33,366 bases of DNA. Origin: a virus. The notes beneath the pieces were generated by a model. It was not told where the DNA came from. It ran no database searches and saw only the letters and a list, made by a program, of their open reading frames with translations. The stretch covers positions 1 to 33,366 of IMG/VR virus record IMGVR_UViG_3300030012_000639; one strand, given 5' to 3'. The translations under genes were made by a program, and so were the position numbers. Shown piece by piece: positions 6,496-18,459 of this stretch (positions are counted from its first letter, which is position 1; each line of letters opens with the position of its first letter).

Positions 6496-6701
6496 TCATA
6501 CCTCCTTCGATGGAAAGCGTAATAATCTCCTTGTCCTTCTAAACACCGAGTCACGATCTGCCAGACTCGAGCTTTAGTAATCCCAAACTTCTCTCCGATG
6601 GCTTCCATAGTCATCTTCTGATTAGTGTATAGATCAAATATTTCTGCATTGCGTTCTTCGTAAGTAGAAATCTGTTCTTGCGTAAGACTTCGTATTCTCA
6701 T
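6462..6701 (-). CDS. Helix-turn-helix protein, sigma-70 region 4-like (79 aa)
   Basis: Residues about 30-52 form a helix-turn-helix: MTMEAIGEKFG then ITKARVWQIV, closely similar to sigma-70 region 4 (TLEEIG..FGVTRERVRQI). There is no region 2, so this is not a complete sigma factor. The ATG at 6701 overlaps the TGA of the DNA polymerase gene (ATGA). It is a good candidate for a phage transcription regulator, and a possible ligand of the repeated intergenic boxes, though this is inference. The C-terminal tail is basic (about residues 64-74). Confidence 0.65.
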   Translation of the reverse strand: MRIRSLTQEQISTYEERNAEIFDLYTNQKMTMEAIGEKFGITKARVWQIVTRCLEGQGDYYAFHRRRYECQKKLHSGNS

Positions 6702-8563
6702 TTAGCATCGCCCCAAGTTTGTCCTTTTTCGTAATCTACTACCAAAGGTACTTTCAACTCGACGCAGTTGACCATCCGATCTATTATTATTTCTGCCTCT
6801 TCCTCCGATCTAACCGAGAAATCTAACTCGTCGTGTATCTGTAAATGTGGTACTAGTCCTTCCTTCCAGAGATCTAGCATCGCTAGTTTAGTCATATCCG
6901 CAGCCGATCCCTGTATCAGCCGATTCAGTGCCTTATATGTAAATGATCGTTTGAGATTATCTCCGTATTTATCTTTAGCCTCTTGCAGTGGCAGAGGAGC
7001 TTGTTTCTCATGATGTAAGTATCCGACCCCCTCCCATAAGTCGAAGTGACATTGTCGACCTCCGAGAGTTGTTATATATCCTCGTTGGGTAGCCATCCGA
7101 GAACACATGTCTTGTAATCCTCTTATGAACGGTACTCGATCGTGGTAAGTATTTAGCAGAGCGAGAGCCTCGTCAGTTTCTAATCCGAGTTCACGAATCA
7201 ACTTATCTTTGCCCATGCCGTAGGTCAAACCAAGGTTTATATCTTTAGCTTGTTTCCGAGGGATGTTAGCCATATCAGCTACGATCTGGTGAAAGTCTGC
7301 ATCTTGGCTCGAGTAAGCTTCTACTGCTTCATCTGCCCCTGTCAGACCGAGTAGTGAAGCGTAGTGCACTGTAATCCTGGGTTCTTGTTGGGAGTAATCG
7401 AAAGCTCCCCAATGTGCTCCTTCTTCTGGGATAAACAATGATCTAATTAGTTTGCCGATCTCTGGGTCTCGAGCTGGTACTTGTTGTAAGTTTGGGTTCG
7501 AGTAACTAAACCGACCAGTCACGGTTCCTCCACCATCGTTTCGTAGTGGGTGAGCTTCAGCATGAATTAATCCGTCATCGTCTACGTGTTCTAAAATCAT
7601 TCCGTCGATAAACGTAGTCCGAGCTTTATTTAACTTCCGAGCAGCTACTAACATCTTTGGTAGTTCATGTTCGTGGCTCTCGAGCCAGTTTGCTTGAAAA
7701 CTAGCCATACCTTTCTCGGTATGTGGATACCATATGTCATTCTTTTTAAAAGCTTTTTCGATCGAAGCGTTCGACCAGATCTCTACGTCGATCCCAAACT
7801 TTCTTTTAAACTCTACTAAGATTTGTTGTTCTTTTTGTGAGAGCTCTTTTGAAAGTTGCTCTGTCCGATCTAAATCGATCCGAACACCACGCCATCGCAT
7901 CTCGATCAGTAATGGAATTAGAGCACACTCTAAATCGAAGATCTTTTGTAGTCCCTCAGTCTCGATCCTCTTCTTAAATATTTTCCATAACTTTAGAGTC
8001 ATTACTGCATCTTGTTCAGCGTATGGCCCGACATATTTTGCAGGGAGTGCCCACATCCCACTCTTTTTATCTACGCCCCATGCTTTCGAGGCACTCTCTA
8101 AAAGAGTTTCATCTTTCGACTCAGCTAAGAAATCTTGTCCTAGATTATTTAAAGAATACGACCACCTGTTCTCATCAAACAACGGGGCAGCAAACATCGT
8201 ATCACGGATATCACATTTTAGTTCGATCTCATAAGCTTTTAACCACCCTACATCGTAAAGTGAATTATGGAAAACAAGCGTACCTTTATGATTTTCAAGG
8301 GTATTTTTGAGCCAGCGTAAGACTAACTCTTCATCTAAGTTACCTCCACCATCATGGCAGATAGGTAAGTATCCACTCCAACTATCTCCAGCTATAGCAA
8401 TACCAATTATTGCACCGTCACCTGTTGGCCATCCTGGGCCTTTAATATGTAAGTTAGGGTCTCGTGTTTCTAAGTCGACTGCTAATGTTTCGTAAGGATC
8501 GAAAGAGGGTAAGACAGACGGAGCTGACCAATCACTCTCAGGTTGAATCAGGGGTATCTGCAC
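6698..8563 (-). CDS. polA: Family A DNA polymerase with 3'-5' exonuclease (621 aa)
   Basis: Replicative polymerase. N-terminal DEDDy proofreading domain: D30/E32 in AVDLETRDP, D104 in HNSLYDVGW, and Y181/D185 in YAEQDAV. All catalytic residues are present. Polymerase domain: motif A D389 (DYSQQEPRI), motif B R436-K440-Y448 and motif C H577-D578-E579 (QIHDEL). There is no 5' nuclease domain, as in T7-type polymerases. The position equivalent to E. coli Phe762 is Leu444 (R436, K440, L444, Y448 keep the spacing), the variant linked in viral metagenomics to slower or temperate viruses. The start is GTG at 8563 with AGGTG upstream, overlapping the gene before by 26 bases. Confidence 0.95.
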   Translation of the reverse strand: MQIPLIQPESDWSAPSVLPSFDPYETLAVDLETRDPNLHIKGPGWPTGDGAIIGIAIAGDSWSGYLPICHDGGGNLDEELVLRWLKNTLENHKGTLVFHNSLYDVGWLKAYEIELKCDIRDTMFAAPLFDENRWSYSLNNLGQDFLAESKDETLLESASKAWGVDKKSGMWALPAKYVGPYAEQDAVMTLKLWKIFKKRIETEGLQKIFDLECALIPLLIEMRWRGVRIDLDRTEQLSKELSQKEQQILVEFKRKFGIDVEIWSNASIEKAFKKNDIWYPHTEKGMASFQANWLESHEHELPKMLVAARKLNKARTTFIDGMILEHVDDDGLIHAEAHPLRNDGGGTVTGRFSYSNPNLQQVPARDPEIGKLIRSLFIPEEGAHWGAFDYSQQEPRITVHYASLLGLTGADEAVEAYSSQDADFHQIVADMANIPRKQAKDINLGLTYGMGKDKLIRELGLETDEALALLNTYHDRVPFIRGLQDMCSRMATQRGYITTLGGRQCHFDLWEGVGYLHHEKQAPLPLQEAKDKYGDNLKRSFTYKALNRLIQGSAADMTKLAMLDLWKEGLVPHLQIHDELDFSVRSEEEAEIIIDRMVNCVELKVPLVVDYEKGQTWGDAK

Positions 8564-8870
8564 TTAAAAGCACCTGTGGTTGTGAGTGTCTAATGTGATG
8601 TTCTACTAAAAACAAATATCGTCTCAAGTCTCCGATATCGTCGAGTAAACCGTTCTCGCCATCGTATCTACGACCAGCTTCGAAGATGTCGTAGTTACAA
8701 GATTCAGCCTGTTGTTCGATACGGTCGAACTTTCTAGCTAACATCATAAACGCACCTGTACCGCCTCGTCGTTTCCAGGAGTCGCCGTAAGATTTTTCAG
8801 ATTCGATTAGACTAGCAATATCGTTCTGCGCGATATCTTTCATCTCCATCCACTTAGGATCTAGTGGCAT
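8538..8870 (-). CDS. Nmad1/DUF1599-like phage protein (110 aa)
   Basis: A conserved phage protein with segments 'KSYGDSWKRRGG', 'GAFMMLARKFDRIE' and 'LLDDIGDLRRYLFLVE'. The pattern, YGxSW followed by an R-rich helix and a DDxxDLRRY helix, looks like the DUF1599 family, called nucleotide modification associated domain 1 because it sits beside base-modification genes. I recall this from the family's appearance and have not searched. The start is ATG at 8870 with GGGAG seven bases upstream. A longer frame to 8960 would overlap the TS-like gene by 107 bases and lacks support. It lies between the TS-like gene and the polymerase. Confidence 0.6.
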   Translation of the reverse strand: MPLDPKWMEMKDIAQNDIASLIESEKSYGDSWKRRGGTGAFMMLARKFDRIEQQAESCNYDIFEAGRRYDGENGLLDDIGDLRRYLFLVEHHIRHSQPQVLLSADTPDST

Positions 8871-9924
8871 TTTTAATCTCCCATTTGATTTGTCTTCTTT
8901 TAATCCAGTGGAAGCAGGCTTGCTGCCAATCCTCCGCTTTAATTGTCGCAAGGTGAGCATAGGCGTCCTTATAATCTCGTTCTTTATGGGCTTTGTAAGA
9001 TGCTACCATCGGTAACATCACGTCAGGGAAAAATGTATTTGTATATTTGTCCCCGTCAAAAAAGTCATATGAAAATTTATCTACAGGTTCTGGCTTTCCT
9101 GCTTCTCTAGTAGGTAATGCTCTATGTATAAAATCTTCACATTCTTTTAAGAATGTAACAGGGTTGTTTACTAAAGGGTAATGTGGGTCAGGATAAGTGT
9201 TTGTATACCATGATCCTAAGCCCTCGATAGGAATATCTTTTACTTTATCCCAGACAGTGTTTTCGTAAACATGAAAGCTATCACTAACTTGGTAATACGG
9301 CCCCATCTCTAGTTCTAAAGAAGCAGCTATATATTCTTGTAACACGGACATATGGACAGCGTTAGCACCGTAAGCTCCCCATAACATATCATTCGATCTA
9401 TTACAGACAGTCATCTGTAATTTGTTATCTCGGATCTTAAAGTAGATATTTGTATTACAAGGGATGTCTTTACTAGGGCTATCAAGATCTGCGAAAGGAT
9501 CCCACATCTGTAAAACCACACGACGAGTATCGGGATCTTCACTTAACATAACAATCACTTGTGTAAGTTGATCTCGATCAAAGCGGTTACGCCAACGATG
9601 TCCATAAGCACCGTTAAGTGTTTGATTATCATCGGAAAACTGTGCCATGCCGCTGTTGAAATATAGTAATTTACTAAGATCGTTAGACCCTGCTAACATC
9701 CAAATTGATTCGAATAAATGAAAGAAAGGATTAGCGTCTCGTTCTGCACTAAATAAAACTCGTTCCCATGGCTTCTGGTAAACAGTAGTTACAGGAGTTA
9801 TTGCTTCTCGAGTCATACCGTTACGGCTTTCTTGCTTTCTATAGTTGACGCTCTCTGGTCCTCTAAAGAAATCAATACCTAACTGCATAGCCCTGTTCAC
9901 ATTACGAGCACTAATCACTTTCAT
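8854..9924 (-). CDS. Thymidylate synthase-superfamily enzyme, possible dUMP hydroxymethylase (356 aa)
   Basis: Carries the fold's signatures in order: E72 (FHLFESIWMLAG), GAYGHRWR (105-112), the phosphate-binding arginines R134-R135, the nucleophile C156 in DIPCNTN, NRSND (175-179), N188 in WGAYGAN, and H218/Y220 in SFHVYEN. Compared with ThyA, the strand after Cys and the RSND motif look more like T4 dCMP hydroxymethylase. The base-reading residue, however, appears to be Asn (N188), not Asp, which points to dUMP as substrate. The enzyme would make dTMP or 5-hydroxymethyl-dUMP from dUMP and methylene-folate. The hmdU-kinase-like gene nearby favours the second, by inference. The ATG at 9924 overlaps the gene before by 14 bases. 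Confidence 0.8.
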   Translation of the reverse strand: MKVISARNVNRAMQLGIDFFRGPESVNYRKQESRNGMTREAITPVTTVYQKPWERVLFSAERDANPFFHLFESIWMLAGSNDLSKLLYFNSGMAQFSDDNQTLNGAYGHRWRNRFDRDQLTQVIVMLSEDPDTRRVVLQMWDPFADLDSPSKDIPCNTNIYFKIRDNKLQMTVCNRSNDMLWGAYGANAVHMSVLQEYIAASLELEMGPYYQVSDSFHVYENTVWDKVKDIPIEGLGSWYTNTYPDPHYPLVNNPVTFLKECEDFIHRALPTREAGKPEPVDKFSYDFFDGDKYTNTFFPDVMLPMVASYKAHKERDYKDAYAHLATIKAEDWQQACFHWIKRRQIKWEIKNATRS

Positions 9925-10147
9925 ACAAGCTCTCCGTGTTTAAGTTGATAATGTGTTCGATCTGTAATCGACTTATCTCCTTTCCTTCTAAAGATAAACA
10001 CCAATAGATAGCGTCTAGTGCGTCTGTCTTCTTATTCGGAAGACTATGATCTCGCATACAGGCTTGTAGGAATCTACCGTAGTAATACATAACTGAGTCG
10101 GTAAACTCTTCCTCGGCTTCTATTATGTGTTGTTTAAGTCTCCCCAT
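9911..10147 (-). CDS. Hypothetical helical protein (78 aa)
   Basis: Unrecognised small helical protein with several acidic and aromatic residues (EEEFTDSVMYYYGRF at 13-27) and one or two Cys. The ATG at 10147 has AGGAG seven bases upstream, placed inside the end of the gene before. It sits between the hmdU-kinase-family gene and the TS-like enzyme and overlaps both, so it may be an accessory part of that pathway. No motif supports any particular role. Confidence 0.6.
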   Translation of the reverse strand: MGRLKQHIIEAEEEFTDSVMYYYGRFLQACMRDHSLPNKKTDALDAIYWCLSLEGKEISRLQIEHIINLNTESLYESD

Positions 10148-11067
10148 CTGCTTTCTCCTTTCTCTATATCTTCTATTAGTGGCATATCTAAATTATCGTA
10201 ATCGTAAACACTACGAGTCCGTCCTTCTTGTTTCATAATCCGCGAGTATTTATCGAACTCGCAAAGTCCTCCTTCTACTTCTCTCATCTCAAACGGCATA
10301 CGATAATGCTCGTCTGTCTTGCTAATTCCTGGGATCGACAGTTCAGATATACAAATATCGTATAGATCCTGCATCTCTGATAACCAATCGTGGCTACGCT
10401 TACAAAACTCTAGCGGTCTACCAGTTAATCTGTTTAGACCTCTCATAGCTCCTGGCCCTGCATTAGCCCACTGACAAATATCTGTTGCGTTTTCTAATAA
10501 ATAAGTATGTCGTAGATCAGTAACCATCTCATAAGCAACGAATGGCCCTATGTATGGGAACCGTAATAAGTATTGCCATGCATCAGCTAACGTATTTAAT
10601 CTTTCTAAATCTTCTAAGATACGTTCTCGCTCGACCCAAATATGAGTTACACACTCTGCTACACCAGTTACTTTATCCATGCGGTTAGGGCTTTTTACAA
10701 TGTAAGCACCCGTCACCCATTTAGGTTGTTTGTAAATTTCTTCGATAGCTTTCTTTCGATCCCACTCGATATGTAGATTATGATCAAGTAATGTCCTGCC
10801 TGTTTCTATCAAGTTAAAGAATCTAAAAGCTACTGTAGCCATAAAAACTTCTGGCTTATCTCGTAACGGTTGTCGTATATGAGTTCTAAACCAACGAGTA
10901 GTCCGATCATCCTCCCTAAACACCTGACAAAACTTAAACTTCTGTAAGATCTCATCCTGTGTCCAAGGAGGCTTTTCTTGTAGATCCTCTTTCTTTATCC
11001 GAATGCGCTCACGTTCCTCTATCCAGTACAGATAGAGAACTAGCTCCTCCGATAAGAAACGGTTCAT
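10123..11067 (-). CDS. 5-hmdU DNA kinase helical-domain family protein (314 aa)
   Basis: Shows the conserved blocks I know from the all-helical family first called alpha-glutamyl/putrescinyl-thymine pyrophosphorylase and now the 5-hmdU DNA kinase helical domain. In order: FCQVFREDDRTTRWF (about 46-60), FRFFNLIET (81-89), VTGAYI (118-123), FPYIGPFVAYEMVTDL (170-185) and ANAGPGAMRGL (202-212). Members act on 5-hydroxymethyl-uracil in phage DNA, priming thymidine hypermodification. No Walker A loop is seen, so a partner kinase domain may be missing here or encoded elsewhere. The ATG at 11067 overlaps the methyltransferase stop (ATGA). A start at 11088 is also open. The last 70 residues are acidic and unassigned. 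Confidence 0.75.
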   Translation of the reverse strand: MNRFLSEELVLYLYWIEERERIRIKKEDLQEKPPWTQDEILQKFKFCQVFREDDRTTRWFRTHIRQPLRDKPEVFMATVAFRFFNLIETGRTLLDHNLHIEWDRKKAIEEIYKQPKWVTGAYIVKSPNRMDKVTGVAECVTHIWVERERILEDLERLNTLADAWQYLLRFPYIGPFVAYEMVTDLRHTYLLENATDICQWANAGPGAMRGLNRLTGRPLEFCKRSHDWLSEMQDLYDICISELSIPGISKTDEHYRMPFEMREVEGGLCEFDKYSRIMKQEGRTRSVYDYDNLDMPLIEDIEKGESRWGDLNNT

Positions 11068-11921
11068 TTTGGTTTTCGTAATATCCATGCACAGTTATTC
11101 GCTATCTCTGGGTAAAATGTAGCAGCTACCACTCGTAGAAACTGTTTACCGAATCGAGCTTTTAATATGTCGAACTGGTCCTCAGTCCATCTCATCTCGC
11201 CTTCCTCTCGCATATCTTTCTGCATGGCTTTACGCAAACGAGGCATCTGGCAAAACGTTCCGACTACGATATCAAGTTCCCAGTTTCTAGTTAATTCATC
11301 GTGTAGTTCTCTAAAGCCCCACTCGTAAACATGGTCTTCAGGGAGCTTATCGTTCGACCCATCGTGATTAGGTGTAGAGACGTAAACTAATCCTCCTGGA
11401 CGTAACACTCTATGTGCATCTTCGAGCCACGGTCTGATGAACTCAGGTTTCATGTGCTCTATAACTTCTGTAGTCCAGAAGAAGTCAATGCTTTCATCTT
11501 CTACATCGAACTTAGGATTGACTGTTAAGTCTTGTATGTCTAACCGACCAGTAAAGTTTTTAAACCATGCTGAGTCCATCACTTGTCCTGTTGGACTATG
11601 GAACCCAGCTTTCTCTGTTAAAACAGCGGGGTCGATGTCTACACCGACATACGATCTAATTATGTCACGCTTCTTTACGGTGTACGCTTTGTACAGGTTC
11701 CTAAGTACCCATATCTCACCGCAACCCACTTCTAATGTATCTATCGGTCTGCCGAACTTATTAGATTCTTCAATACACAGAGAAGAAATCTTGTCGTATC
11801 TCGTCATGTGTGTAATTTCATCTGGTCGCCAGTTGCCTAGTAAATTAGCGTTGGCAATATCCATTCGCGTGTTTTTACTATCGTTCACGTTTTCAGTGAG
11901 TTTCTTTCTAATCGAAGCCAT
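11064..11921 (-). CDS. Class I SAM-dependent methyltransferase (285 aa)
   Basis: Rossmann-fold methyltransferase. Motif I LEVGCGE (63-69), the acidic end of strand 2 in VGVDIDP (D95), then the DFFWTTEVIEHM block (147-157) and the LRPGG turn (173-177) before strand 5. The specificity region after that has no N/DPPY motif, so it is not a standard DNA amino-methyltransferase. It resembles the Methyltransf_11/25 group acting on small molecules, sugars or hydroxyl groups. It leads the unit that runs into the hmdU-kinase-like, TS-like, Nmad1-like and polymerase genes, with a clear AAAGGAG before ATG 11921. Action on a modified thymidine is an attractive but unproven inference. Confidence 0.85.
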   Translation of the reverse strand: MASIRKKLTENVNDSKNTRMDIANANLLGNWRPDEITHMTRYDKISSLCIEESNKFGRPIDTLEVGCGEIWVLRNLYKAYTVKKRDIIRSYVGVDIDPAVLTEKAGFHSPTGQVMDSAWFKNFTGRLDIQDLTVNPKFDVEDESIDFFWTTEVIEHMKPEFIRPWLEDAHRVLRPGGLVYVSTPNHDGSNDKLPEDHVYEWGFRELHDELTRNWELDIVVGTFCQMPRLRKAMQKDMREEGEMRWTEDQFDILKARFGKQFLRVVAATFYPEIANNCAWILRKPK

Positions 11922-11981: not shown

Positions 11982-13471
11982 AGCGGAAAGTATTTTTGCG
12001 TCTGAGGTTCTATTAAATAGAGATTCTCTTTCGCCCTAGTTAGACCCACATAGAAGACACGCGACTCATCGTCTGGGTTATTCTGAAACGATTTGTATAC
12101 GCGACTTGATATATCTGTCAGCAGTATGACATTACTTGCCTCACCTCCTTTTGCTGCATGGATCGTGGATAGTCGTATCCTTGGTTCTTTCGTAATCTTT
12201 TCACCTCTACGAAGCATCGCTCGGATATAACTCCTCTCATCTACCGAAACACCTGTAAAAACATCGTACCAATATTCGTTAGGAAGATTGGGAATGTGTT
12301 TCTTAGCTGTATCATATGATATTAAAGTATCAAAGTCGATTTTCTCGAGGGAGGTAGGTGTCCGAAGCTTTAAATAATTTAAGACTTTGGTAAGTTGTGC
12401 TACGGGTATCGGCTCTCCTTTCCTAAAACTTTCCCAAGATTGCACTGCCATGATCTTTCTTTCCGAAACACTAGGTTTATTTTTAGTTTGGTAGAACCAT
12501 CCTTCGGATCTGCAGTGTTGTTCTATACTGTTTAGTAGATAATTTGTTCTTGCTAAGACTAACCAGTCATCATGTTCCATGTCTATCGTTTCGTAAGATG
12601 GCTCCCATGAAACGTGGCCTTCTTCTTTTCTAGGATTCCAGGTTTTATGCACTCGAGATCCTACTTGTCCGATACAACGTTCTGCAAGAGTATGGATAGA
12701 TCTAGGGATTCTATAAGACTGTTTAAGAACCATCGCGTCCTTAGAGTTACGGATCAGGTAATCAACATCTGCGCCAGCCCAACGATAGATAGCTTGATCA
12801 TCATCCCCTGCTATATAAACACGATCCGCAGAGTCACAAAGCTTTCTAACCACTGCCCACTGTAGAGGAGATAAGTCTTGTGCTTCATCTACAAACATCA
12901 CGTCTAATTTAGGAGCGTGACCACGATCTAAAAACATCTGGAGCATATCGGTGTAGTCGATAAGTAATCGGTCTCGCTTAAATAGTTTTAATCCGTTAGC
13001 GAATCTTTCCAATTCAAACCAGCCTACTGCATCATCTGCTTCATGCCACTGCGTTTCTAAATCTACTTGCCTCATCCTCGCAAGGTTTTCTATAAACAAC
13101 AGTCTGTCATCTTTAGAAATACCAGAGATATGTCCCTCGTCAGTATTTACTGCACCTTTTAATCTAAGATTTAGTTTCTCGTTTAGATCGTAAATATCCG
13201 AGGAGGACATCACACTATCTTTAGACAGACCTAACTGTTGAAAGCAAAGTGAATGAAGTGTTCTAAAATACGGTAGTTGGTTTTTCGTTATAGCAAACTT
13301 AGACATAGCTCGAGACTTACCCTCTTGCACTGCCTGTTTAGTAAACGTAAAGAATCCAATATCTTCTGGACAAGTACCGCGATCTAGTTCTTCTTCTAAC
13401 AAACCTAACAGTGTACTAGTCTTACCTGTTCCAGGAGGCCCAAGAATTACCTGTGTATCAGAGGAGAGCAT
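11978..13471 (-). CDS. UvrD/Rep-like superfamily 1 helicase (497 aa)
   Basis: ATP-driven 3'-5' DNA helicase type. Walker A GPPGTGKT lies near the N-terminus (about 11-18), the Q-like and Ia segments follow (FFTFTKQAV), then motif II VDEAQDL, motif III GDDDQAIYRWAG, motif IV SYR, motif V TIHAAKGGEA and motif VI YVGLTRAKENL near the C-terminus. It is shorter than UvrD (about 720 aa), with reduced accessory subdomains. The ATG at 13471 overlaps the primase stop as TGATG; a GTG one codon earlier is possible. Coupling to the primase suggests it works at the phage replication fork, in place of a DnaB-type helicase, which is not seen here. Confidence 0.92.
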   Translation of the reverse strand: MLSSDTQVILGPPGTGKTSTLLGLLEEELDRGTCPEDIGFFTFTKQAVQEGKSRAMSKFAITKNQLPYFRTLHSLCFQQLGLSKDSVMSSSDIYDLNEKLNLRLKGAVNTDEGHISGISKDDRLLFIENLARMRQVDLETQWHEADDAVGWFELERFANGLKLFKRDRLLIDYTDMLQMFLDRGHAPKLDVMFVDEAQDLSPLQWAVVRKLCDSADRVYIAGDDDQAIYRWAGADVDYLIRNSKDAMVLKQSYRIPRSIHTLAERCIGQVGSRVHKTWNPRKEEGHVSWEPSYETIDMEHDDWLVLARTNYLLNSIEQHCRSEGWFYQTKNKPSVSERKIMAVQSWESFRKGEPIPVAQLTKVLNYLKLRTPTSLEKIDFDTLISYDTAKKHIPNLPNEYWYDVFTGVSVDERSYIRAMLRRGEKITKEPRIRLSTIHAAKGGEASNVILLTDISSRVYKSFQNNPDDESRVFYVGLTRAKENLYLIEPQTQKYFPL

Positions 13472-14994
13472 CACAAAATACTATCATCGAAGTCAGGTAG
13501 ATTATGTGACTCTGTCTGTACCTGAAACTCTGGTATATGCCACACGTTTGCACCTTTACCTTTTATATTGAAGAAGTAAGAGTCCCCGCCTATGTTTTTC
13601 AGTTTAGCGGTCAACTTATTTCTAGGGTAATCTCTGAAGTTTTTACGATGTAGATAATCAACTAGATCTGCTAATCTAAAATACGTCCGTCCTTTATCAG
13701 TCCAGGGTTTACCGAGTAATAGTTCATCACGTTCCCTAGCTGGTCTTTCGGTGCAAAAGGTTTCTAATAACTCGTTAAAATGACCCTCAGTCGAAGCGTC
13801 TTTCGGAACTTCAATAATCGTAAGCGTATCTAACAACTGTTGTATTATCTGTCGCCAAACGTTATCTCTAACTTTAGGTGGAATAATATTTAAGTGATCC
13901 ATACACTTTCTTTGAAACCGTGTCTGGTTTAGTAATTCTTCGGTCTCGAGTTCTAAACGACCGCCCTCGACATCTAAAAACCATATCGGTGGGTCACTAT
14001 TTTGTTTGGTTAGGTTACTGAACAGGGGAGTACCGCCTGACGCACCAATACCGAACTTTCTAGTTCTACATAGTGGACTATTACAATGTCCCGATATCGG
14101 TTGATCGTTACATTTATAAAAATAATCTTTTCGTTGCACTTGTTTCGTAATTGTTAGAACTTCTTGTGCACTTAATGGTGGGGTGAAGTGTTGATGGTTA
14201 GCTTCCTCAACACGTTTCTCCCAATCGTCAGGGAACTTCTTTCTTAGAAACACCCCTAGATTAAATAATCCAGAGTTACGAGTACCTTTAGGAAAACCCT
14301 GAGCGACTAGATGCTCGAGGCAAGGAGGAGATTGATCTAGCCACTCAGAGTCTTCTATCACTGGAACAACGTCCAGCTTATCTAATTCTTCTTCTGTTAG
14401 AACCAGAGTCTCTGCGTACTCTATAAATTCTTTAGGTGTAAGAACTTTACCTGTAGGCCCGAAAGCATAACCAGTAGAGTTCTCTCCTCCGAAGTATGGC
14501 ATGTTCAAAGAACTACCACGATCCCCTCTTTCTAACAATAATTTAGTTTGCTTAGGAAATATCTCTGACTGCCCGAACCCGATGGCTGAAGCAACCTGCC
14601 TAAGTTTCCTTTGCATAGTAGACGCAGGGACAGGGTCGAACACGAAGATAAATAAATGTGCTCCCCCACTCTTTGATCTACAAACTACCAGTGGTAGCTT
14701 AAACTTTTTTAATTTCTTAGCGAGTCCTTTTAAATCTACAGTGAACTCATCTATATCTATCGAACCCCATACACAACTGTTGTTTTCATCTATCGGGACG
14801 ATACCTAAACCTATTTCTCCTTTTAAGTGTTGACTCCAAAGATCGTTGAGCTCTTTTTGTGTAAGCTCTTTCGATATAGTTACATACTTGCCTTTTGCTT
14901 TACCGTCTTCTCTAGTTTCTTTCGTCGGGGTAAAGACACTGTAGCCTTGCCTTAACCCCGCGAAACGGTGCGCAAACTCCTCTTGTAATGACAT
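13471..14994 (-). CDS. AEP-superfamily primase with four-Cys C-terminal cluster (507 aa)
   Basis: Archaeo-eukaryotic-type primase. The metal-binding hDhD is D80/D82 in GSIDIDEF, and the second signature is SKSGGAHLF (107-115) with H113. LNMPYFGG (163-170) corresponds to the third segment. This order is that of TOTE/PrimPol-type AEP domains. Downstream, C225, C295, C304 and C309 stand in a region with GTRN (237-240) and CRTRKFGIG, like the Cys-rich extension of several viral primases, where it binds zinc or an Fe-S cluster. The C-terminal 150 residues look like a winged-helix region. It is coupled to the SF1 helicase gene. The ATG at 14994 has AAGGGTGAG upstream. Confidence 0.85.
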   Translation of the reverse strand: MSLQEEFAHRFAGLRQGYSVFTPTKETREDGKAKGKYVTISKELTQKELNDLWSQHLKGEIGLGIVPIDENNSCVWGSIDIDEFTVDLKGLAKKLKKFKLPLVVCRSKSGGAHLFIFVFDPVPASTMQRKLRQVASAIGFGQSEIFPKQTKLLLERGDRGSSLNMPYFGGENSTGYAFGPTGKVLTPKEFIEYAETLVLTEEELDKLDVVPVIEDSEWLDQSPPCLEHLVAQGFPKGTRNSGLFNLGVFLRKKFPDDWEKRVEEANHQHFTPPLSAQEVLTITKQVQRKDYFYKCNDQPISGHCNSPLCRTRKFGIGASGGTPLFSNLTKQNSDPPIWFLDVEGGRLELETEELLNQTRFQRKCMDHLNIIPPKVRDNVWRQIIQQLLDTLTIIEVPKDASTEGHFNELLETFCTERPARERDELLLGKPWTDKGRTYFRLADLVDYLHRKNFRDYPRNKLTAKLKNIGGDSYFFNIKGKGANVWHIPEFQVQTESHNLPDFDDSIL

Positions 14995-17016: not shown

Positions 17017-18459
17017 TTGAAATATGAGTTCAAGACTGAACCGTTTGAACATCAGCGCACAGCTTTATTACGTTCATGGGATAAAAAGAAGTATGCGTTC
17101 TTCATGGAGATGGGAACGGGGAAGTCTAAAGTCTTAATTGACACAATAGGTATCCTCTACTGTAAAGGAGCCATAGACTCTGTTGTTATCGTTGCACCCA
17201 AAGGTGTCTATAAAAACTGGGAGTCTCGTGAAATACCAACACATTTACCTGACTATATAGATCGTCATGTAGCAGTTTGGTCTCCTGCCCCACGTAAAGA
17301 AGAAAAGAAAGCTCTTACTTCTTTGTTTGATCTAATTGATAAACTCAAAATATTTATTATCAATGTAGAAGCATTTAGCACTAAGAAAGGTGTCACGTTC
17401 ACGGAGAAGTTTGTACTAAGCCACAGACCACTGTTCGCGGTAGATGAATCTACGACTATTAAGAACCCTAAAGCAGCTAGAACAAAAGCGATAATTAAGA
17501 TTAGTAAAGACGCAGCGTTTAGAAGAATACTAACAGGCTTTCCTATTACACAGTCACCTCTTGATCTTTACAGTCAAACAGAAACGTTAGAGAAAAATTT
17601 GTTAGGATTTACTTCTTATTATTCTTTTCAGAACCATTACGGTGAAGTTGTTAATAGATACTTCGGTGGAAGAACAGTTAAACAAGTTGTAGGGTATCGA
17701 AACCTTTCTGAACTTACAAAGAAACTAGACTCTTTTTCTTACAGGGTATTAAAGAAAGACTGTTTAGATTTACCAGATAAGATTTATCAGCGTAGGGATG
17801 TAGAACTAACTGCTGAACAAAAAAAGTTGTACCATGAACTTAAAGATCGTGCGATTACGATTTTACAAAACGAAGAACAAATATCTGTTACGAATATACT
17901 CACCCAGTTACTAAGACTTCATCAGATAGTCACGGGCCATGTAAAGTCTGACGATGATGTAGATATCCCCGTAGATAATAATCGCATAGACGCTATGTTC
18001 GAAGTTATCTCAGAGATGCAAGGTAAAGTAATTATTTGGGCAAACTACAGACAAAATATCCTGGAGATTGTTGATAGTCTCAAACAAGTATTTGATCCTA
18101 ATGAAGTTGCTTCTTACTTCGGAGATACTTCCCCAGATGAACGAGAAAGAGTAATTAAAGACTTCCAGAACCCTGATTCACCGTTAAGGTTTTTCGTAGG
18201 TAATACACAAACAGGTGGCTACGGTATTACATTAACAGAAGCTAAGAACGTAATTTATTACTCTAACAACTTTGATTTAGAAAAACGGTTACAGTCGGAA
18301 GATAGAGCGCATCGTATCGGACAAGTCAACAAAGTTACTTATGTTGATCTTGTAGCTAAAGATACTGTAGACGAAAAAATAGTCGACGCTCTTAGAAATA
18401 AATTAGATCTCGCCCAAGAAGTATTAGGAGATGATAAATGGCAAAACTGGTTAGGCTAG
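17017..18459 (+). CDS. SNF2-family DNA helicase/translocase (480 aa), TTG start
   Basis: Superfamily 2 Snf2-type ATPase. Motif I EMGTGKSK (31-38, K36), motif Ia VIVAPKGVYKNW, motif II VDEST (D143, E144), motif III LTGFPITQSP (173-182), motif V TGGYGITLTEA and motif VI QSEDRAHRIGQ (426-436), with the Snf2-typical 'RAHRIGQ'. About 480 residues is normal for compact phage versions. These enzymes move along double-stranded DNA and in phages are linked to replication or recombination. It is the only plus-strand gene, has its own promoter region and overlaps the last virion gene tail to tail by 9 bases. TTG at 17017 follows AAGGA by 8 bases. Confidence 0.9.
   Translation: MKYEFKTEPFEHQRTALLRSWDKKKYAFFMEMGTGKSKVLIDTIGILYCKGAIDSVVIVAPKGVYKNWESREIPTHLPDYIDRHVAVWSPAPRKEEKKALTSLFDLIDKLKIFIINVEAFSTKKGVTFTEKFVLSHRPLFAVDESTTIKNPKAARTKAIIKISKDAAFRRILTGFPITQSPLDLYSQTETLEKNLLGFTSYYSFQNHYGEVVNRYFGGRTVKQVVGYRNLSELTKKLDSFSYRVLKKDCLDLPDKIYQRRDVELTAEQKKLYHELKDRAITILQNEEQISVTNILTQLLRLHQIVTGHVKSDDDVDIPVDNNRIDAMFEVISEMQGKVIIWANYRQNILEIVDSLKQVFDPNEVASYFGDTSPDERERVIKDFQNPDSPLRFFVGNTQTGGYGITLTEAKNVIYYSNNFDLEKRLQSEDRAHRIGQVNKVTYVDLVAKDTVDEKIVDALRNKLDLAQEVLGDDKWQNWLG

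Follow-up and report, generated by a model that had tools for sequence, protein, structure and literature searches.

A probable phage thymidine-modification cassette in which a conserved Hen1-like methyltransferase may stand in for the 5-hmdU DNA kinase

The window studied here is the whole 33,366-nucleotide stretch of the IMG/VR record IMGVR_UViG_3300030012_000639, a genome fragment of an uncultured phage, and it carries a block of genes that very probably puts hydroxymethyl-uracil in the phage DNA. We favor, with roughly even confidence, the view that this block represents an M6/YuA-like thymidine-modification cassette with a replaced second step: a SAM-dependent methyltransferase (MT) would cap 5-hydroxymethyl-dU (5-hmdU) to give 5-methoxymethyl-dU. 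The data suggest that the conserved MT stands in for the kinase here and that the modification is a methyl-capped base, so far undescribed. The block consists of the following genes.

11064–11921, minus strand: SAM-dependent methyltransferase (MT), 285 aa (Pfam Methyltransf_23, 1.2e-11)
10123–11067, minus strand: HMUDK_hel protein (HEL), 314 aa, a standalone 5-hmdU DNA kinase helical domain (Pfam PF18723)
9911–10147, minus strand: small, conserved ORF of 78 aa between HEL and TS (no Pfam family)
8854–9924, minus strand: TS-superfamily enzyme (TS), 356 aa, assigned by sequence to the dUMP-hydroxymethylase type (PCN, RSND, N188)
8538–8960, minus strand: 140-aa protein, homologue of Pam3_54 (no Pfam family)
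6698–8563, minus strand: family A DNA polymerase (PolA), the last gene of the block (Pfam DNA_pol_A, 3.1e-60)

The order MT-HEL-78 aa-TS-140 aa-PolA forms one conserved block, MT included, and the order at PolA is the same in M6, Pam3, and the relatives of the window phage. An earlier sequence-only reading had delimited a hypermodification core at 8538–11067, with all genes overlapping and running into the polymerase. Indeed, each of its four ORFs overlaps the next and PolA overlaps the last, but the interval leaves out MT, which lies immediately upstream of HEL and shares four bases (ATGA) with it.

In the proposed pathway, the TS-type enzyme would convert dUMP into 5-hydroxymethyl-dUMP, which would enter the DNA as 5-hmdU; this first step is well supported. 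HEL would bind the DNA and present 5-hmdU, serving the adjacent MT here and a P-loop kinase in related phages. MT, a putative O-methyltransferase of the metal-dependent kind whose EVIEH...H site resembles that of Hen1, would then transfer the SAM methyl to the hydroxymethyl oxygen, yielding 5-methoxymethyl-dU in DNA. Capped in this way, 5-hmdU would be shielded from restriction as well as from the repair that targets this base.

The MT profile matches those of the Hen1 RNA 2'-O-methyltransferases (Hen1 4xcx, 8e-6), and the four metal ligands described for Hen1 (PMC10781085) all align with MT residues, Glu152, Glu155, His156, and His197. The likeness comprises the SAM motif, the EVIEH and DHxxEW metal ligands, and the STPN loop, but it covers only about 170 aligned positions, and the partners of MT are base-modification genes, whereas those of Hen1 belong to RNA repair. 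It is the sequence profile that points to a Hen1-like enzyme. EVIEH-type motifs are found in other class I methyltransferases too. When a structural model of MT was compared by Foldseek, the top 50 matches were general class I methyltransferases, with generic small-molecule methyltransferases ranking first. The conserved residues 1–28 of MT, which lie outside the model, are the prime candidate for a contact with HEL.

MT is found directly upstream of HEL, on the same strand, in 91 of 92 distinct relatives (within 60 bp in 83, with a median gap of 5 bp), the single exception beginning at a contig end; such gene adjacency is not proof of a complex. As for host genomes, the cassette was detected in just a 5.2-kb contig binned as Maricaulis, with MT at its end, besides three distant matches. 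The pairing of TS with the helical protein has already been published for pelagiphages (mSystems 2022, PMC9599517): the HTVC023P-type phages and uncultured marine phages carry TS and aG/PT-PPlase1 near PolA, in versions related to those of M6 and PaMx11. The main text of that paper contains neither 'methyltransferase' nor 'methylase', and the MT partner is not discussed there.

Among 50,697 phage records, just five have an MT homologue, which in each case adjoins a TS-type hydroxymethylase. Genes of the type found in phage AXL3 likewise lie beside a hydroxymethylase in 22 IMG/VR contigs, one being cut off before the enzyme. The window and AXL3 MT groups constitute one family (hhalign 99.3%, E=9e-21), in which the four putative metal ligands are invariant. 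The AXL3 group is unrelated to the window phage, and its hydroxymethylase displays PCT, RSSD, and Asp, that is, the dCMP type; the feature common to both groups is a 5-hydroxymethyl pyrimidine. The DNA of the cultured phage AXL3 resists 35 of 37 restriction enzymes and is cut only at A/T-only sites (PMC7504290). No HEL was found in the AXL3 group, so MT may not need HEL, or may act on a free nucleotide. This absence of HEL, together with the many small-molecule methyltransferases retrieved by Foldseek, is consistent with an alternative that we consider unlikely, in which the cassette makes 5-hmdU, HEL alone acts on DNA, and MT works elsewhere, on free 5-hmdUMP, an amino group, RNA, or protein. 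The strict MT-HEL pairing, with overlapping genes or gaps of a few bases, and the association of MT with hydroxymethylases in independent phages both argue against it.

Among the closest known systems are the thymidine hypermodification clusters of the Pseudomonas phages M6/YuA and PaMx11/Ab18, for which the gene roles in M6 and PaMx11 were taken in part from Pfam names and PMC6449724. M6 DNA carries 5-NedU, a base derived from 5-hmdU (PMC6449724). The standalone HMUDK_hel proteins of these clusters are 36–41% identical to HEL, and M6 shares with the window the succession of helical protein, small gene(s), TS, small gene(s), and PolA. In contrast, the window phage has no HMUDK P-loop kinase, amino acid:DNA transferase (ADDT), or Nmad5; no PLP, radical SAM, or FAD enzyme is seen between its UvrD and PolA; and, unlike in these clusters, MT stands in front of HEL.

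The missing kinase was sought in several ways, with positive controls detected for both the PF18748 and AAA_33 searches. PF18748, the P-loop 5-hmdU DNA kinase, was found neither in 17 window-type records nor, in a second search, in 20, and AAA_33 had no match in 18 window-type records while detecting both control phages, M6 and Ab18. PF18747, like the other two models, has no match in the window record or its long relatives, and tblastn with four phage kinases gave no match near HEL. A kinase encoded elsewhere in the genome was rejected as an explanation, none being found by any of these models or by the four kinases. ADDT, which gives strong matches in M6, Ab18, and Bhz59, was found neither in the window record nor in its relatives. 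The 17 relatives of 52–84 kb have no kinase or ADDT, and they are not small fragments since 16 of them carry a terminase. The sequence-only reading had proposed that the phage makes 5-hmdU and builds on it; the dUMP-hydroxymethylase-type TS, HEL, and the M6-like gene order uphold this part, but the kinase route that it implied found no kinase or ADDT to sustain it. It is improbable that the phage follows the ordinary M6-type route, phosphorylation and then amino acid transfer, with a kinase and transferase that are too diverged or supplied elsewhere. The HEL-TS-PolA order, as in M6, and the mere 15 bits that the Ab18 kinase itself reaches with the HMUDK model fit such a route; the broader AAA_33 model, which detects the Ab18 and M6 kinases but none in the 18 window-type records, the lack of ADDT, and the fact that the window has no P-loop gene left unexplained from UvrD to PolA speak against it.

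HEL matches Pfam HMUDK_hel (PF18723) with E=1.5e-44 and 152.9 bits, which, set against a cut-off of 25, is not a chance match. The alignment runs from residues 10 to 281 of HEL and covers profile positions 5–278 of 281, a full-length match. The membership of the 314-aa protein in this family, first proposed from the blocks FREDDRTTRW, TGAYI, YIGPFVAYE, and AGPGAMRGL, all of which it contains, is thereby confirmed, as is the absence of a Walker A motif, which had seemed puzzling. Members of the family ordinarily lack the motif, since M6, Bhz59, Ab18, Pam3, and RHph_I65 encode the kinase in a gene of its own. HEL is not a degenerate kinase: the family is standalone in other phages too, and in M6, PaMx11/Ab18, and Pam3 it is found beside a separate, genuine P-loop 5-hmdU DNA kinase.

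The AlphaFold model of HEL (pLDDT 90.3, pTM 0.88) retrieves by Foldseek the viral HMUDK_hel proteins and the SP10 5-hmdU DNA kinase, a 637-aa protein that contains the domain. It has a fold in common with ADDT (E=1.4e-3) and resembles the solved OGG glycosylase MjOgg (probability 0.96, TM 0.54 by target, with a weak E=0.33); sequence comparison found no relative of HEL among solved structures. We propose that HEL is a helix-hairpin-helix DNA-glycosylase-like subunit that binds DNA and presents the base. The fold held in common with ADDT and the many invariant polar residues of HEL could also mean that HEL itself performs the modification, as an ADDT-like transferase with a glycosylase fold, and that MT matures the product, for example by methylating the added group. 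We give this a low probability, given that both the name and the curation of the family treat it as a kinase domain, which the SP10 kinase contains, and that there is no activating kinase here.

In the Brevibacterium phage LuckyBarnes, which has no HMUDK match, HEL (PF18723) adjoins group-transfer enzymes, the TET-associated glycosyltransferases (TAGT), and a PCN/RSND TS. The partner enzyme of HEL therefore varies, although the group transferred in LuckyBarnes would be a sugar and not a methyl. On a wider scale, we tentatively advance, at somewhat less than even probability, that Hen1-like MTs O-methylate phage 5-hydroxymethyl-pyrimidines (to 5-methoxymethyl-dU here and to 5-methoxymethyl-dC in the AXL3 group) and that HMUDK_hel is a general base-presenting subunit with an exchangeable kinase, glycosyltransferase, or methyltransferase, which would make a new branch of DNA hypermodification. 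If so, ether capping would join the phosphate, amino acid, and sugar additions known for phage 5-hydroxymethyl bases, an enzyme would be available for tagging such bases in vitro, and the purpose of the helical domain in 5-hmdU DNA kinases would be explained.

The first step of the pathway relies on the 356-aa TS, which matches Pfam Thymidylat_synt (E=8.6e-23) and phrog_5131, thymidylate synthase (E=1.1e-107). It is 41% identical to the SPO1 dUMP hydroxymethylase, gp29, over the core and 42% identical to M6 gp58 over the full length. Alignment bears out the RSND that had been read after the catalytic Cys as well as Asn188, which corresponds to Asn177 of E. coli. The signature of PCN, RSND, and Asn at the dUMP position is the same as in the SPO1 enzyme and M6 gp58, whereas E. 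coli ThyA has PCH and RSCD; the scores are 157 bits versus SPO1 gp29 and, with a different program, about 54 bits versus ThyA. Among window-type TS proteins, 80 of 81 carry all three elements, and the remaining one has RSND and Asn, with the PCN pattern not found. The dUMP-hydroxymethylase type is well supported by these sequence features. Although a CMP hydroxymethylase is its nearest relative in sequence among solved structures, a cytosine substrate is disfavored by the dUMP-type Asn. SPO1 differs in its gene neighborhood, with no HEL or methyltransferase annotated in 30 kb of SPO1. That the enzyme makes dTMP only and leaves the phage DNA unmodified, as the name thymidylate synthase in PHROGs and most records would have it, is very improbable in view of this signature, of the closeness to the SPO1 and M6 proteins, and of HEL, which always accompanies TS in the window group.

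The two small genes flank TS. For the 140-aa gene, which separates TS from PolA in those relatives whose sequence extends that far, no Pfam match supports the Nmad1/DUF1599 label given to it earlier. Its product is 42% identical to Pam3_54, annotated by its depositors as 'nucleotide modification'. The position of the gene, as in M6 and Lydia, suggested a T7 gp1.7/DUF3310 nucleotide kinase, a candidate that was discarded because neither M6 gp61 nor T7 gp1.7 resembles the 140-aa protein to any meaningful degree. The 78-aa ORF is represented in most relatives, either by a homologue (27–99% identical within the group to which the window belongs) or by an ORF of 73–86 aa in its place.

The methyltransferase (MT) and the helical protein (HEL) of the HMUDK_hel family belong to a tight minus-strand block of six genes, in which every gene overlaps its neighbour.

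Genes of the block
11064–11921, minus, SAM methyltransferase, 285 aa (MT)
10123–11067, minus, 314-aa helical protein (HEL)
9911–10147, minus, 78-aa ORF
8854–9924, minus, thymidylate-synthase-type enzyme, 356 aa (TS)
8538–8960, minus, 140-aa protein
6698–8563, minus, family A polymerase (PolA)

The 33,366-base window is a full IMG/VR virus record, and is apparently a genome fragment, as no terminase gene was found in it. Upstream of MT sit a UvrD helicase and an AEP primase (13471–14994), the latter matching PF22548, the AEP domain of TOTE conflict systems (6.4e-13). The sole large plus-strand gene (17017–18459), by eye an SNF2-like helicase, is kept in the relatives whose loci reach that far. 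In a second group of relatives (L013, L016, L085, and others), a lysine-rich protein of 85–115 aa with the conserved motif DDKSTPDVNEAWxGGKAPKKK is encoded directly before PolA, after the 140-aa gene.

HEL is matched over its length by Pfam HMUDK_hel (1.5e-44), and the proteins most similar to it in annotated phages are the helical ones from Epa5, PaMx11/Ab18, YuA, and M6 (36–41% identity). Its AlphaFold model is all-helical and confident (pLDDT 90.3, pTM 0.88). In a viral structure library, it matches the helical proteins of phiRSL1 and PhiW-14 and the 637-residue SP10 5-hydroxymethyl-dU (5-hmdU) DNA kinase; its match to an amino acid:DNA transferase (ADDT) is weaker. Among solved structures, only the M. 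jannaschii 8-oxoguanine glycosylase is prominent, with a probability of 0.96, yet E = 0.33. The strongly conserved stretch YIGPFVAYE..TDLRHT...A.DI..W may be a helix-hairpin-helix motif and, after it, the glycosylase aspartate. One relative carries an in-frame TGNNNTAVGG repeat inserted after HEL (L041 7732–7884).

The sequence-only reading had regarded a kinase-family protein devoid of a Walker A loop as a puzzle. HEL indeed lacks this loop, but such is the rule: the M6 helical protein gp55 is also without a P-loop and is preceded by the gene of a P-loop kinase, gp54 (HMUDK_HMUD1, 7.7e-18). A separate kinase likewise accompanies the helical protein in Bhz59, Pam3, and RHph_I65, and Ab18 and Epa5 share the M6 arrangement with weaker kinase scores. 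The unusual point is rather that a recognisable kinase is wholly missing. PF18748 was found neither in the window and 16 relatives nor in the 20 records of a second search. The broad kinase profile AAA_33, which detects the M6 and Ab18 kinases, gave nothing in 18 window-type records, and neither PF18747 nor ADDT was found in such records. Tblastn with four different phage kinases, ADDT, and Nmad5 gave no match in the HEL neighbourhood of any relative. Among the relatives searched, 17 have a length of 52–84 kb, and a terminase is present in 16 of those.

In M6, Bhz59, Ab18, Pam3, and RHph_I65 the partner of HEL is a kinase, whereas in the window it is MT, and the centre of the finding moves from a Walker-A-less kinase to a conserved methyltransferase replacing the kinase. 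Among the 92 distinct relatives, 91 have an MT homologue on the HEL strand, upstream and mostly as the immediate neighbour (median gap 5 bp, below 60 bp in 83; the largest, 918 bp, contains small ORFs); in the remaining one, the locus is cut by the contig end. A window-type MT (55% identity; L236 4262–5098) also stands at the end of a 5.2-kb contig assigned to a Maricaulis MAG, probably a phage contig. The whole phage collection yielded only five matches to MT, PW916, two AXL3 records, and two Manatee Spring viruses, all adjoining an NTP pyrophosphohydrolase, a thymidylate-kinase-like gene, a TS-type hydroxymethylase, and a dCMP deaminase. This arrangement recurs in 22 further IMG/VR contigs, one of which ends before the hydroxymethylase. 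Judging by their profile alignment (hhalign 99.3%, E = 9.4e-21; 27 common invariant positions), the window-type and AXL3-type MTs clearly form one family.

The MT family profile matches Hen1 RNA 2'-O-methyltransferases (4xcx, 8e-6; 5wy0; 3jwg), which methylate a hydroxyl and bind Mg2+ via Glu, Glu, His, and His (PMC10781085). These ligands align with E152, E155, H156, and H197 of MT, all four invariant in both groups. Since Foldseek with the MT model ranks general class I methyltransferases highest, we confine the claim to a predicted O-methyltransferase-like active site, not Hen1 membership. Mean conservation of residues 1–35 exceeds that of the rest of the protein; residues 1–28 are highly conserved yet modelled below 50 pLDDT, as expected of a segment folding on a partner or substrate, and make a candidate docking segment.

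The residues noted for TS, RSND and Asn188, are borne out: window-type enzymes carry PCN, RSND, and Asn188, as do SPO1 dUMP hydroxymethylase and M6 gp58. The finding of a TS-HEL thymidine-modification core is real and better supported than sequence reading alone allowed; 5-hmdU is probably present in the DNA of this phage. AXL3-type enzymes, by contrast, carry PCT, RSSD, and Asp, the T4 gp42 dCMP-hydroxymethylase type, and the 'thymidylate synthase' of AXL3 itself (L030 7851–10993) looks like a dCMP hydroxymethylase with these residues; the T4 residue was read by eye, the automatic column being one residue off (RSNDVVFGFRND). AXL3 DNA resisted 35 of 37 enzymes, the two cutters having purely A/T sites (PMC7504290), as expected for modified cytosine, and a dCMP hydroxymethylase would explain this resistance at every tested site containing G or C. 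It follows that the two groups have a 5-hydroxymethyl pyrimidine in common rather than a particular base. MT may cooperate with HEL and O-methylate such a group on DNA. The TS-helical protein pair was published in 2022 in uncultured pelagiphages and tied to M6/PaMx11 (PMC9599517), in a main text where the word 'methyltransferase' is absent. In the literature searched, which lacks key papers, no description of a methoxymethyl pyrimidine from phage DNA was found. The methyltransferase-for-kinase variant is open to a clear test.

In LuckyBarnes, the partner of HEL is a pair of TET-associated glycosyltransferases and an HMUDK match is absent; WilliamStrong also has one such glycosyltransferase gene. 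Exchangeable partners in these neighbourhoods would fit a two-part enzyme in which HEL is the half that handles DNA. The LuckyBarnes HEL gene adjoins both glycosyltransferase genes and a PCN/RSND TS (L116 1774–5789), whose C-terminal extension resembles, by eye, the 140-aa protein of the window (YGKSWRKRG...).
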